34,730 nucleotides of DNA from Oscillatoriales cyanobacterium PMM_0019 (GTDB lineage Bacteria > Cyanobacteriota > Cyanobacteriia > Cyanobacteriales > CASBRB01), in assembly GCA_949127975.1 (NCBI GenBank), contig CASBRB010000085.1, forward strand, positions 1-34,730, written 5' to 3'. Every line of letters starts with the position of its first letter. Within the stretch, counting starts at the first letter, position 1. The notes beneath the pieces are model-generated. The model was not told where the DNA came from. It worked only from the letters and a program-made list of their open reading frames with translations, and did not search any database. Position numbers and translations under genes: made by a program. This document shows positions 9,542 through 28,542 of the stretch, piece after piece.

Positions 9542-10894
9542 ATGAATAATGCCCCCAAAATAAACCTGCTCACTATGTTCCAACTGGGCTTATTTCAGAT
9601 GGGACTAGGCATCATGTCAATCCTGACGCTAGGAGTGCTTAACCGAATAATGATCGATCCAAAACTCCTAGCAGTGCCAGCGACAATTGCAGCAGGTGCT
9701 ACGGCAATGTATTTGTTTGTTTCCCCAGCACGGGTTTGGTTTGGGCAGATGTCCGATGCCAAAAAGCTTTGGGGCTATCACCGCACGGGATATATCTGGA
9801 CTGGTTTGTCGCTGCTAGCAGTTTTTGTGTTTTTAGCTGTGCAGGTGATTTGGCAGTTGGGTGCTAGCAAGGTAGACGGCTGGACTCCACAAAGTACCGC
9901 TTGGGCGGCACTTTTGGCTCTGATATTTGCCTTATATGGGCTTTGTCTTGATGCCAGTTCTACACCTTTTGCTGCTCTTTTAGTGGATGTATCGGATGAG
10001 GATAACCGCTCTAAGCTGGTAGGAATTGTGTGGTCGATGTTGATGGTAGGAATTGTAGTTGGAGCGATTGTCAGTAAAAAATTGTTAGAAGGACTGACTT
10101 TAGAAACTTTGCAGGCGTCAGTCAACCGTTTGTTTATTATTATGCCTGTCGCGGTTGTTTGCCTGGGATTTATTGGCACTATTGGGGTAGAAAAGAAATA
10201 CTCCCGATTTGCCTCCCGATCTATATTAACCGATCGGCATATCAATCTGGGCACAGCTTTCAAGATTTTGACGGCTAGTCGCCAAACTGGGCTATTTTTT
10301 AGCTTCTTAATGGTGATGACGATTAGCTTGTTCTTGCAACAACCAATTCTAGAGCCTTACGGCGGCGAAGTGTTTCACATGACGGTAGCTCAGGGTACGC
10401 TTTTAAATGCTTCTTGGGGTACTGGGGTTTTGCTGGGAATGAGCTTGACGGGATTTTTGGTTGTGCCTCGTCTGGGTAAACAAAAAACAGCTAAGTTGGG
10501 GTGTTGGTTGACTGCTTGCAGCTTTGGGTTAGTCATTGCTACTGGTTTTACAGCTAATCCAACTTTGCTGAAAGCTGCCGTGCTGTTGTTTGGGATCGCT
10601 TCTGGGGTACTTACTAATGCAGCGGTGAGTTTGATGTTAGATTTAACCACGGCTGAGACAGCAGGAACATTTTTGGGCGCTTGGGGATTAGCTCAGGCTG
10701 TAGCTCAAGCGTTAGCCGCCGTAGCAGGTGGGGGACTGCTGGATATCGGGAGGAGGTTGCTGGTAACGCCGTCTTTAGCTTATGGTTTGGTGTTTGCTGT
10801 CTCAGGATTAGGGATGGTTTTGGCGGTGGTTTTACTAAACCAGGTAAATGTATCGCAATGGTTGACTGAAAACACCCCTCCTGATAAGCTGTAG
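9542..10894 (+). CDS. PucC/BCD-family MFS transporter
   Basis: 450-residue membrane protein with about 12 hydrophobic segments, of the PucC/LhaA (BCH1, BCD) branch of the major facilitator superfamily. Signature parts are the N-terminal FQLGLFQMGLGIMSILTLGVLNRIM, the loop WFGQMSDAKKLWGYHRTGYIW and the central LLVDVSDEDNRSKLVGIVWSM. In purple bacteria PucC and LhaA assist light-harvesting complex assembly and are thought to handle bacteriochlorophyll. The cyanobacterial homologues are assumed to act in chlorophyll delivery or assembly, but the substrate is unproven. It ends the tyrS-pyrF-unknown-pucC plus-strand run. Immediately downstream is the relic IscB element. Confidence 0.88.
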   Translation: MNNAPKINLLTMFQLGLFQMGLGIMSILTLGVLNRIMIDPKLLAVPATIAAGATAMYLFVSPARVWFGQMSDAKKLWGYHRTGYIWTGLSLLAVFVFLAVQVIWQLGASKVDGWTPQSTAWAALLALIFALYGLCLDASSTPFAALLVDVSDEDNRSKLVGIVWSMLMVGIVVGAIVSKKLLEGLTLETLQASVNRLFIIMPVAVVCLGFIGTIGVEKKYSRFASRSILTDRHINLGTAFKILTASRQTGLFFSFLMVMTISLFLQQPILEPYGGEVFHMTVAQGTLLNASWGTGVLLGMSLTGFLVVPRLGKQKTAKLGCWLTACSFGLVIATGFTANPTLLKAAVLLFGIASGVLTNAAVSLMLDLTTAETAGTFLGAWGLAQAVAQALAAVAGGGLLDIGRRLLVTPSLAYGLVFAVSGLGMVLAVVLLNQVNVSQWLTENTPPDKL

Positions 10895-10960
10895 AAGGTT
10901 GACAGAATGAAGGAATTCCAAGAAGCATATTTTCTCAATCTCGCACCAATGCACGGCAAG

Positions 10961-11219
10961 CTATCCACCAATCAACGGACAGCACTGGACAACCAGCATT
11001 GACCTTGAATAGATAGCCAGGTTAAGTCCTTTGCGGACTACGTTAAGGAGGTCATGACACCCATAGGTGCTTTCCAGCTTATGGCTCTGTCGTTGGAGAT
11101 TAAACAGGTGTATTTGGTTAAACCAGTGTCTTCGACAAGGGTAAGCCTCTTTAACATTGCCGTTAGCGCAGCGGTCCCTCTTAGGGACGGAAAACATAAC
11201 CCTAGAAATAGGAGGACAA
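10961..11219 (+). ncRNA. Omega RNA (HEARO) of a relic IscB element
   Basis: This non-coding stretch sits directly 5' of a truncated iscB, the position of the omega RNA in IscB loci. It aligns by eye with the RNA upstream of the intact iscB at 28299-28542. Both have GGNCAGCA at the scaffold start (10977), then a hairpin (here CTGG/CCAG). Both have AAGTC...GACTACGTT, here closed as AGTCC/GGACT (11025-11029 with 11035-11039). A third hairpin, CCATA/TATGG (11061-11084), replaces CTACAGA/TCTGTAG. Both have AACATTG near the 3' end, and here a hairpin GTCCCT/AGGGAC (11174-11188) precedes the ribosome site. The stems are kept with different bases. Any guide would be the roughly 16 bases before 10977. 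The exact 5' end is uncertain. Confidence 0.72.
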
Positions 11220-11510
11220 ATGTCTAATTTTGTATTTGTGATTGACACCAACCATCAACCACTAGACCCAATCCATTCAGGTCAAGCAAGATGGTTACTC
11301 AAGTCAGGCAAGGCAGCGGTGTTTCGTCGCTATCCGTTCACGATTATCTTGAAATATGTCGTTCCCAAACCAAAAATACAACCTCACCAACTCAAGATTG
11401 ATCCAGGATCGAAAGTTACTGGCTTATGTATCGTACAAGGCGAGGGAAATGTAATTTGGGGCGCACAATTGACGCATCGTGGGCAAGAGATTAAGAGCGA
11501 TCGTCCTTGA
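11220..11510 (+). pseudogene. iscB: Truncated IscB (PLMP and RuvC-I only)
   Basis: 96 residues matching the first fifth of the intact IscB at 27015-28298. It keeps the PLMP-type segment (VFVIDTNHQPLDPIH, then AVFRRYPFTIIL) and RuvC-I (KIDPGSKVTGLCIV). It ends abruptly right after HRGQEIK, where the intact protein continues into the arginine-rich bridge helix. The bridge helix, RuvC-II, HNH and RuvC-III are all absent, so no nuclease activity is expected. The start at 11220 is supported by GGAGGA 5-10 bases upstream; an earlier in-frame ATG at 11157 would run through the RNA region. The break at about 11490-11510 runs into the ribosome site of the next gene, as if the element's 3' part had been deleted. 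Confidence 0.85.
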
Positions 11511-11519
11511 AGGAGAAAA

Positions 11520-12332
11520 ATGACGGATTTTTGGGAGACGGTTTTAAACTTGGCTCAGACAACTACTGCCAAAGTGGGGACTCAGTTGTTAGCTGATTTT
11601 GGGCAGGTGCAGGCTTCGCAAAAGGATGATGGCACTTTGGTGACGCAATCCGATAGCTGGGCAGATGAACAGATAAAGGATGCTCTGGCTGCTACTTTTC
11701 CCCATCACGACGTCCTCAGCGAAGAAGCAGAACACAGGTTTCAGGGTGCTGAATGGTGTTGGGTAATCGATCCCCTGGATGGTACTACCAATTTCACCCG
11801 AGGGATTCCTCTGTGGGGAATTGCTCTCGGTTTACTTTATCAAGGCACACCAGTGTTTGGGTATGTTCATTTTCCCCCAGTAAAGCAAACCTTTCACGGC
11901 TTTTGGTACGGCTCTTCTCAACTCACAGGTCCCACAGGCGCATTTCTCAACGATAAATCTATTCGCCCTAGTGAAGACGATCCTAGCAACAATCACTTCT
12001 TCAACTTGTGTGCCCGCAGTACATCTGTAATAAAACCAGGCTTCCCCTGCAAAATCCGGATGTTGGGTGTCGCCAGCTACAATTTTCTCGCTGTCGCCGC
12101 TGGCATCGCCCTAGGTGGAGTAGAGGCAACACCCAAAATTTGGGATATTGCTGGTGTCTGGGCAATTGCGCAAGCCGCTGGTGCAGTTTGGGTGCCACTG
12201 GAATCAAAACCAATTTTTCCCCTGGAAGTTGGGCAGGATTATGGCAAGCGTCCTTTTCCCACTTTAGTTGTTAGCCGTCCTGAACTTGTGCCAGTGCTTA
12301 AACCTTTGGTAGAATCCGTTAGCTGTCGATAG
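11520..12332 (+). CDS. Inositol monophosphatase family protein
   Basis: 270-residue member of the lithium-sensitive, Mg-dependent phosphatase family (IMPase/HisN/SuhB type). The metal site is visible: SEEAE with Glu68/Glu69, then WVIDPLDGTTNF with Asp84 and Asp87, and the C-terminal motif WDIAGVWAIAQAAGA. Family members dephosphorylate inositol phosphates, histidinol phosphate, PAP or fructose-1,6-bisphosphate, and the substrate cannot be read from sequence. A good ribosome site (AAGGAG) lies just before the ATG, immediately behind the truncated iscB. So the relic's deletion ends a few bases upstream of this gene's translation signals, and any native promoter may have been replaced. Confidence 0.88.
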   Translation: MTDFWETVLNLAQTTTAKVGTQLLADFGQVQASQKDDGTLVTQSDSWADEQIKDALAATFPHHDVLSEEAEHRFQGAEWCWVIDPLDGTTNFTRGIPLWGIALGLLYQGTPVFGYVHFPPVKQTFHGFWYGSSQLTGPTGAFLNDKSIRPSEDDPSNNHFFNLCARSTSVIKPGFPCKIRMLGVASYNFLAVAAGIALGGVEATPKIWDIAGVWAIAQAAGAVWVPLESKPIFPLEVGQDYGKRPFPTLVVSRPELVPVLKPLVESVSCR

Positions 12333-27014: not shown

Positions 27015-28298
27015 CTAGACACCATATGAGTAACCGTCCTTTTTGTGAATGGTTGAACAGTATTTGTGACTGATTCCAGCCACTCTACCTATCTTGGTAG
27101 AAATATCAAAACTACCAGTTGCACGGCATTGAACTCGACCTACATAAGTGCCTATTTTTTTGCCATTTGTGACAGCAGCTTTAATTATGTCTCCAGTCTG
27201 AAAACCGAAATGGACTTGTTTATTTGTGCGATGTCGCGTAGGAAACCCGTATTTATCGGTTCCTGACATTTTGCGAGTTCCGTGTCCAGATGCTTTAATC
27301 AACAACGGTTTAATTCCTTTGATGTTAAGAGCGGGGGTGGATTTACCAACACAAGCTGCATCAATCCAGTGCTGTTTTTCCAGGTTTTGGGCAGTCCGAT
27401 TGAACTTAGTCAACCCACCTGAACCTGTTTCGACTGGTAAATCAGTGGCTTTCAGTGTTTCTAGTAGCTTGAATCTGGTTGCATTGACAGCCGCAGTATC
27501 AGCCAGTGGTTTGTTTGCCTGTGTAAGGATTTTATTTGACTTTTCAGGGTCTTTTTTCAGGAAATCTTTGATATCCTTAGTCCCTTTCTTGATATTACAT
27601 TTTGCGCAGCTTAAGGTTAGGTTTGAAATTCTGTTTGAACCTCCTTTAGCGCGTGGGTGAATATGTTCTATCTGCAAAGGAACATCCTTGACACCACAGT
27701 AGGCACATTGTCTATCCCACTTTTCAAGCAAGTATTCGCGGGTTTCGTATCCTGCTAAAGTTCCTTGCTTGTATTCGTTTCCCTGAATATCCGGGTTCTG
27801 CATTAGTTGGGTGTCAAACCTTACTAATTCCTGTGATATGGCAGCGGTTGGGGCAAACTTGCTAAGACGTTTAACCCAAGTGTCAATGTTATGAACACGA
27901 CTCATGAGACTTGGTGGTAACCACCCATCTGGGCGTTTCCTGTTATCAAAACGTGGTTGACGATATCGAGTTTTGCGGTTACGGCGACTTCTACGCAGTT
28001 GACGGCGAGTAAGCATTGCATCTTTGATTGCAAAACCTCGGTGTTGAATCTCAGCAGCCCATACAACCTCTCCCGTAGCATCGAGTACGAGCGCTACCCC
28101 TGTGACTTTAGAGCCTGGGTCAACCTTTACTCTCAGCGGTTCTACAGGAGCTTCAGTATGTGATTCCTTTAGTATCAAAGTAAAAGGAAATCGTCTAAAG
28201 ACTGCCGCTTTCTTGTTTCTCAATAGTTGTCTTGCAAAAGCCGGATGAATTGGATATAATGGTCTTTTTTGTGAATCAATTACAAACACTTTGGACAT
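27015..28298 (-). CDS. iscB: IscB RNA-guided nuclease
   Basis: 427 residues with every IscB part in order. PLMP-type N-terminus (VFVIDSQKRPLYPIHPA, then AVFRRFPFTLIL). RuvC-I KVDPGSKVTGVAL with Asp60. Arginine-rich bridge helix at about 97-117 (RRQLRRSRRNRKTR). RuvC-II ISQELVRFD with Glu157. HNH with Cys198/Cys201, His212 and His214 (IEHIHPRAKGG) and CAKCN at 231-235. RuvC-III QHWIDAA with His310 and Asp313. C-terminal domain to residue 427 for target recognition. IscB proteins are the ancestors of Cas9 and cut DNA guided by an omega RNA. GGAGGG 5-10 bases upstream fixes the start. No TnpA transposase is nearby, so the element would depend on one elsewhere. Confidence 0.93.
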   Translation of the reverse strand: MSKVFVIDSQKRPLYPIHPAFARQLLRNKKAAVFRRFPFTLILKESHTEAPVEPLRVKVDPGSKVTGVALVLDATGEVVWAAEIQHRGFAIKDAMLTRRQLRRSRRNRKTRYRQPRFDNRKRPDGWLPPSLMSRVHNIDTWVKRLSKFAPTAAISQELVRFDTQLMQNPDIQGNEYKQGTLAGYETREYLLEKWDRQCAYCGVKDVPLQIEHIHPRAKGGSNRISNLTLSCAKCNIKKGTKDIKDFLKKDPEKSNKILTQANKPLADTAAVNATRFKLLETLKATDLPVETGSGGLTKFNRTAQNLEKQHWIDAACVGKSTPALNIKGIKPLLIKASGHGTRKMSGTDKYGFPTRHRTNKQVHFGFQTGDIIKAAVTNGKKIGTYVGRVQCRATGSFDISTKIGRVAGISHKYCSTIHKKDGYSYGV

Positions 28299-28542
28299 TG
28301 CTGTCCCTCCTTTCGGGTAATGTTAGCTTCGCCAATGTTTGATGCCGGTACTTTCCAAAAAGCACTGTCTTACCCCTCGTAAAACTGTTTAACTTTTTGG
28401 TTCTAGAGCTACAGACTAGCTTCGCATCTGTAGGTAGGAACTTTAACTCTTGCCTCAAACGTAGTCGAGTTTTGACTTAGGCTGGTCAGCTATCTGAAGA
28501 GAGAGGCATGAAGCCCCGTCTCTTTAGAGCGGGGTGCTGACC
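28299..28542 (-). ncRNA. Omega RNA (HEARO) of the intact IscB
   Basis: Non-coding, directly 5' of iscB on the same strand, as expected for an omega RNA. Stems seen: GGTCAGC (28542-28536) with GCTGACC (28490-28484), closing a region that holds the hairpin CCCCG-CTCT/AGAG-CGGGG. AGTC/GACT (28463-28477), followed by ACGTT. CTACAGA/TCTGTAG (28409-28433). A long-range pair GGGTAA/TTACCC (28375-28370 with 28320-28315) just before the ribosome site. The same succession occurs at 10961-11219 with different bases. The guide would be about 16 bases preceding the scaffold, at 28558-28543. Ends are estimated, not mapped. Confidence 0.82.

Follow-up and report, generated by a model that had tools for sequence, protein, structure and literature searches.

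A truncated IscB element with a well-preserved ωRNA in Oscillatoriales cyanobacterium PMM_0019: probably a recent decay product

The ωRNA and the IscB fragment

The window analysed here (34,730 nt, the whole of contig C85 in a draft cyanobacterial genome of 5.74 Mb) contains a HEARO RNA (ωRNA) at 10960-11200 of the forward strand, which forms the left end of an element and is followed by a fragment of an iscB gene (11220-11510, forward strand). The element is flanked by a gene for a PucC-family (MFS) transporter, its putative insertion host (9542-10894, forward strand; PF03209, 368.9 bits), and by a downstream gene of the inositol-monophosphatase family (11520-12332, forward strand; PF00459, 151 bits).

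The Rfam cmscan analysis identified the RNA as a match to RF02033 (score: 103.2 bits, gathering score: 83, E-value 2.1e-20), with the model covered in its full length (positions 1-211); both this score and the conserved stems with compensatory changes place it in the HEARO/ωRNA family. AGTCC (11025-11029) pairs with GGACT (11035-11039), CCATA (11061-11065) with TATGG (11080-11084), and the 3' hairpin is formed by 11092-11100 and 11128-11136; around the CCATA/TATGG and 3' hairpins RNAalifold predicted a central long stem (11042-11052 with 11145-11155, forward strand; 15 sequences), which the single-sequence fold also reports. Among the 61 consensus pairs predicted for these 15 ωRNAs of the subfamily, 31 exhibit two-sided changes. 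The 10960 copy (L017) keeps 60 of the 61 pairs in the alignment of the 15 members, on a par with copies linked to intact nucleases, while scattering at random the positions at which it differs from the related copy on contig C507 left 46 pairs on average and 55 at most (5000 trials); its folding also beat 197 of 200 shuffles (z -2.5). The sequence-only reading of this DNA had described the same order of stems with changes that preserve pairing, and the consensus pairs and the RF02033 match bear this out; the RNA region it delimited is real, but starts at 10960 and not at 10961. The check with the Rfam HEARO model that it proposed for both copies of the window gives 103.2 bits at 10960 and 158.1 bits at 28317. 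It compared the stems with the intact locus of the window; that locus represents a different subfamily, so the C507 copy is the proper counterpart.

The unpaired 3' part of the 10960 ωRNA carries a 27-nt hairpin insert, GTTAGCGCAGCGGTCCCTCTTAGGGAC (11162-11188, forward strand), of the kind of cyanobacterial small dispersed repeats, which is missing in the C507 copy. Resembling inserts occupy the identical position in L015, L019, L022 and L150. We considered the insert as a marker of a sister relationship between L015 and L017; this use is weakened, as similar inserts recur there in other copies and in another genome. Two positions within ωRNAs, each with CG^AGG or a similar sequence, repeatedly harbour short hairpin repeats (GTTAGCGNAGCGG...), which lengthen an unpaired region or a loop there; the second position, in a hairpin loop, is occupied in L002, L016, L018, L021, L022, L025 and L027. 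An ωRNA from another genus has a similar hairpin insert in the equivalent place.

The IscB fragment (96 aa; PF14239 RRXRR, 102 bits) comprises the PLMP region and RuvC-I and ends before the bridge helix, matching only positions 1-90 of 314 in NF040563 (guided_IscB; 105.7 bits, cut-off 175). Of the parts of a functional IscB (RuvC-I/II/III, bridge helix, HNH and target-recognition region) only RuvC-I is thus left, which agrees with the earlier description of an IscB of 96 residues cut off after RuvC-I. The start signals noticed in that description are likewise in place: a Shine-Dalgarno sequence AGGAGG (11210-11215, forward strand), conserved in the C507 copy, and the ATG at 11220.

Insertion site

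We fetched 80 named orthologous cyanobacterial loci with the inositol-monophosphatase-family gene; the transporter/phosphatase pair is syntenic in about 70 of them, and the 10960 insertion is absent from all of these ~70 syntenic relatives. In an uncultured Coleofasciculus (L124, 2352-4001) the gap between the two genes contains a different, unrelated gene for an RRXRR protein, an independent insertion; this protein is seemingly devoid of the HNH part (IsrB-like).

IscB guides are 16 nt long. The expected guide of the 10960 ωRNA, CACCAATGCACGGCAA (10944-10959, forward strand, immediately upstream of position 1 of the HEARO model), is the element's own left flank and would represent former 3' codons of the transporter, copied from the host; TCGCACCAATGC occurs in this flank and also at the C-terminus of the transporter in Aphanothece sp. 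(L061). The right host flank, GCGATCGTCCTTGAAGGAGAAAAATGA (11497-11523, forward strand), would correspond to the former last transporter codons, with a stop overlapping the ATG of the next gene. When the left flank (...CGCACCAATGCACGGCAA) is fused with GCGATCGTCCTTGAAGGAGAAAAATGA at 11497, the product is RTNARQAIVLEGEK*, which reads RTNARQ|AIVLEGEK* and is in register with RTNAKEAIATVFESELD* of the Aphanothece protein (alignment score 22 against a maximum of 20 among 300 random joins, a modest margin). Since the joined flanks restore the C-terminus in register, we place the element within what had been the final transporter codons, adjoining the motif of its subfamily, an assignment read from the alignment of the flanks. 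A host-derived guide thus lies 5' of the scaffold in the transporter flank and the adjacent motif on the other side, where GCGATCG fits SYGATCG. The C-terminal transporter codons are also broken upstream of the ωRNA by a segment of ~80 nt (about 10862-10941), with an earlier stop at 10894; examined as a candidate repeat, this segment proved to be single-copy in the genome.

Subfamilies and the missing right end

The nearest relatives of the 10960 copy are the C507 copy, whose IscB is intact (457 aa) and belongs to the same subfamily, the stand-alone copy on contig C196 (L015), which has retained its right end, and a shorter copy on contig C412 (L026). Complete or stand-alone copies of this subfamily end with ...TTGTCCAC...GATTAGAGG....| followed by SYGATCG, and eight right ends of the subfamily read ...ATTAGAGG....SYGATCG. 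The SYGATCG motif is contained in HIP1 (GCGATCGC), the highly iterated palindrome, which is known to be a site of methylation; as the adjacent motif of a nuclease, such a sequence would be out of the ordinary and would occur very often in the host. Examples of this right flank in the subfamily are L033, L142, L143, L145, L152, L155 and L158. L026 (C412:9355-9566) is a stand-alone ωRNA that has lost the 3' pseudoknot part and apparently kept right-end-like sequence. The second subfamily ends with ...GGAG-N8-| before RTGA and includes the intact IscB 16 kb away in the window (427 aa; 27015-28298, reverse strand; NF040563, 454 bits), which is ~57% identical to the C507 IscB and is accompanied by its own ωRNA (28317-28541, reverse strand; RF02033, 158.1 bits).

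The right end of the subfamily (TTGTCCAC/GATTAGAGGCGTA) was not found at 11200-11520. Instead, the homology to IscB extends up to AAGAG[C]GAT (AAGAGGGAT in C507) and overlaps the host GCGATCG, so that the codon alignment and the SYGATCG right flanks of the subfamily locate a putative deletion junction, AAGAGCGATCG, at 11493-11503 of the forward strand. What is present is a HEARO RNA with the first ~94 codons of IscB, from a subfamily that adjoins CGATCG, with the right-end sequences absent and neither RNA nor fragment decayed. In our opinion the locus most probably decayed recently and represents the left half of an IscB-ωRNA insertion sequence that used to be complete. A complete element would first have entered the final codons of the PucC-type gene, with CAA on its left and GCGATCG on its right; everything from IscB codon ~94 up to and including the right end would then have been deleted, probably by way of the near repeat formed by AAGAGNGAT in IscB and AAGCGATCG in the host, i.e. 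microhomology with the GCGATCG target site. This microhomology is short and partly assumed, as C507 has AGGGAT and not AGCGAT. The order of insertion and deletion is inferred, since no relative has the same insertion. We also considered a deletion that ran via GATTA in the right end; its product would differ from the observed sequence, and the route via the host GCGATCG was preferred. The remainder should be neither excisable nor mobile, because the right end is gone. The decay in progress that the sequence-only reading had suggested as one possibility is supported by the loss of the right end, by the microhomology signature of the deletion and by the equal freshness of RNA and IscB fragment. 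If this scenario is correct, a single deletion that joins iscB to the target motif of the same element suffices to create a stand-alone ωRNA.

An already truncated copy could also have been inserted by an aberrant route, or the truncated unit (ωRNA with the 5' part of iscB) might itself be mobile and have been inserted as such. The latter we regard as quite unlikely: both host junctions look clean, and the subfamily does include ωRNA elements with internal deletions that have right ends (L152, L158), but every mobile derivative found retains the right end that the 10960 copy lacks. Neither of the marks of a mobile non-autonomous IS200/IS605-type element, i.e. both ends and multiple copies with the same ends, was found here, and no second copy with the 10960 junction was detected in PMM_0019 itself or across 293 genomes of its order.

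Preservation of the RNA and of the protein fragment

Comparison of the IscB fragment with the C507 IscB yielded dN 0.15, dS 1.47 (near saturation) and dN/dS 0.10. Polarised by six relatives, two derived residues fall in the fragment and six in the C507 protein, while none of 25 near-invariant codons is altered in the fragment, which is as constrained as the intact genes. By both bounds, from the RNA and from the fragment, the neutral divergence since truncation amounts to at most about 5%. Since the non-functional protein remnant shows no more decay than the RNA does, the integrity of the ωRNA needs no selection after truncation and is no evidence for a retained function. The argument implied earlier, that preserved stems indicate selection, therefore fails, and the test for post-truncation selection on the stems, which we tried, is uninformative given the equal preservation of the fragment. 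More generally, intact stems next to a dead nuclease are no proof of retained function if the protein remnant is equally fresh.

The comparison with close relatives that had been proposed as a check was made at the level of synteny and found no shared insertion on which selection on the stems could be read: the genus is represented by one genome, and no syntenic relative carries the insertion. Two pairs of orthologous stand-alone insertions in relatives were uninformative as to purifying selection: L194 and L195 are as identical in the flank as in the element, and L211 and L219 have near-identical elements with unlike upstream flanks.

ωRNA copies in the genome and possible partners

The genome contains 26 full or near-full HEARO copies (25 above the cut-off and one just below, at 81.8 bits) and only five intact IscB genes, which makes an ωRNA without a nuclease the rule in PMM_0019. 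Y1 transposase genes also occur, some of them containing stops. Stand-alone ωRNAs reportedly act together with IscB, as the original report of 2021 is said to have described. The ωRNA at 10960 may still be made by read-through, and the C507 IscB could in principle load it. The pair would then only protect the allele, cutting chromosome copies without the insertion.

It is thus conceivable that the ωRNA has been kept by selection as a guide in trans, loaded by an IscB encoded elsewhere (the best candidate being that of C507) and directed at the empty transporter site of sister chromosomes or of incoming DNA. The intact RNA, the presence of a same-subfamily IscB of 457 aa, the ratio of five intact IscB genes to 26 HEARO copies and the function of stand-alone ωRNAs with IscB reported in PMC9581776 are consistent with this. 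We nevertheless consider it unlikely, as the equally intact IscB fragment makes selection after truncation unnecessary, and no other site in the assembly that matches CACCAATGCACGGCAA with at most two mismatches and is followed by CGATCG was found among the matches listed. A site in sdhB has two mismatches and lacks the CGATCG motif, while among the best 20 matches with flanks one on contig C27 has three mismatches and is followed by TCGATCG, which is explicable by chance. In principle the ωRNA could guide the IscB 16 kb away, as suggested earlier; judging from subfamily relationships, however, the C507 protein would be the better-matched and more likely partner if the ωRNA acts in trans, and no second motif-flanked target with at most two mismatches was found among the matches listed. 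The recent deletion remains our preferred explanation of the locus.

Stand-alone ωRNAs at start codons of host genes

Stand-alone elements of the RTGA subfamily, about 380-450 nt long, end with CCCGGAGTTTTTTAG| directly before ATGA. HEARO elements were reportedly described in the original paper of 2009 as inserting before ATGA or GTGA. In 12 of the 16 readable stand-alone copies of the own genome the ATG after the element opens a host gene (L002, L003, L005, L006, L007, L009, L011, L014, L021, L022, L023 and L024), and 19 of 23 readable junctions in relatives start an open reading frame (L193-L198, L202-L205, L207, L211, L213, L214 and L217-L221; two pairs represent the same site). Element and host gene share the orientation, and many copies have GGAG 8 nt before the ATG. 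The genes behind the elements were assigned to families with Pfam; from their sequences we take those of the own genome to include sufB, sqdB, hetR, a rubredoxin, a transketolase-family and an NDH-2-like gene. The ωRNA thereby becomes the 5' leader of host genes such as sufB, sqdB, hetR, hemC, pdxH and others, in the own genome and in relatives.

The chance of the pattern is 2e-17 over all RTGA sites and 3e-11 over intergenic RTGA sites, with background rates estimated from the window. Placement at start codons is observed directly, and part of the pattern could be explained by purging of harmful insertions. Our literature search, which did not cover the original HEARO paper, found no report of such a placement, and a study of Limnospira expressly deferred the question of where HEARO RNAs are located to future analysis (PMC8400943).

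We speculate that orphan ωRNAs of this genome may form a maintained pool of ~390-nt elements located before start codons, with their own ribosome-binding site, which would serve both as leaders and as guides for intact IscB proteins, the 10960 copy being a newly orphaned member. We consider this rather doubtful as a whole, a judgement that applies jointly to the pool, to the putative leader or regulatory function of stand-alone ωRNAs and to the membership of the 10960 copy. The start-codon pattern nonetheless matters more than the relic at 10960: if stand-alone ωRNAs systematically insert at start codons together with a ribosome-binding site, they constitute a mobile family of 5' leaders across cyanobacteria, and their effect on the expression of essential host genes is a directly testable question.

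For the 10960 copy itself a regulatory role finds no support. It could have been exapted as the 5' leader of the phosphatase gene, ahead of whose start it lies in the same direction, other stand-alone ωRNAs being leaders of host genes, or as a regulator like TldR, which was also proposed from the sequence. This is very improbable: the insertion is recent, found in a single genome at a site that is not conserved, the former overlap of transporter and phosphatase genes has merely been pushed apart, and the 96-aa N-terminal remnant, which ends before the bridge helix and has neither HNH nor RuvC-II/III nor a target-recognition region, lacks what RNA-guided DNA binding needs. As TldRs keep the binding of guide RNA and DNA (PMC13418256), in a near full-length protein with a dead catalytic site, the protein remnant can be ruled out as a TldR-like regulator.

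Comparison with known systems

Like TldRs, the TnpB-derived RNA-guided repressors (PMC13418256), the locus combines a guide RNA with an adjacent nuclease-dead protein related to a transposon nuclease, but TldRs retain guide-RNA and DNA binding, whereas at 10960 most of the protein is missing and the source is IscB, not TnpB. Like the non-autonomous IS200/IS605-type elements exemplified by the internally deleted L015, L152 and L158, it has kept the left end with the ωRNA; unlike them, it has no right end. Stand-alone ωRNAs that act with IscB in trans, as cited in PMC9581776, similarly have no functional nuclease in cis and an intact IscB elsewhere; the 10960 copy, for which trans activity is a candidate property, differs from them in retaining a nuclease fragment and in the loss of the right end, and for these two reasons it is regarded as a deletion product. 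From typical RF02033 members it is distinguished by the 27-nt hairpin insert in the 3' part, by a nuclease gene of 96 codons and by the missing right end. In scoring above the curated cut-off, in covering the full model length and in its position directly 5' of iscB it corresponds to the HEARO RNA/ωRNA of IscB, and the locus is a real but ordinary relic of a known type of element.
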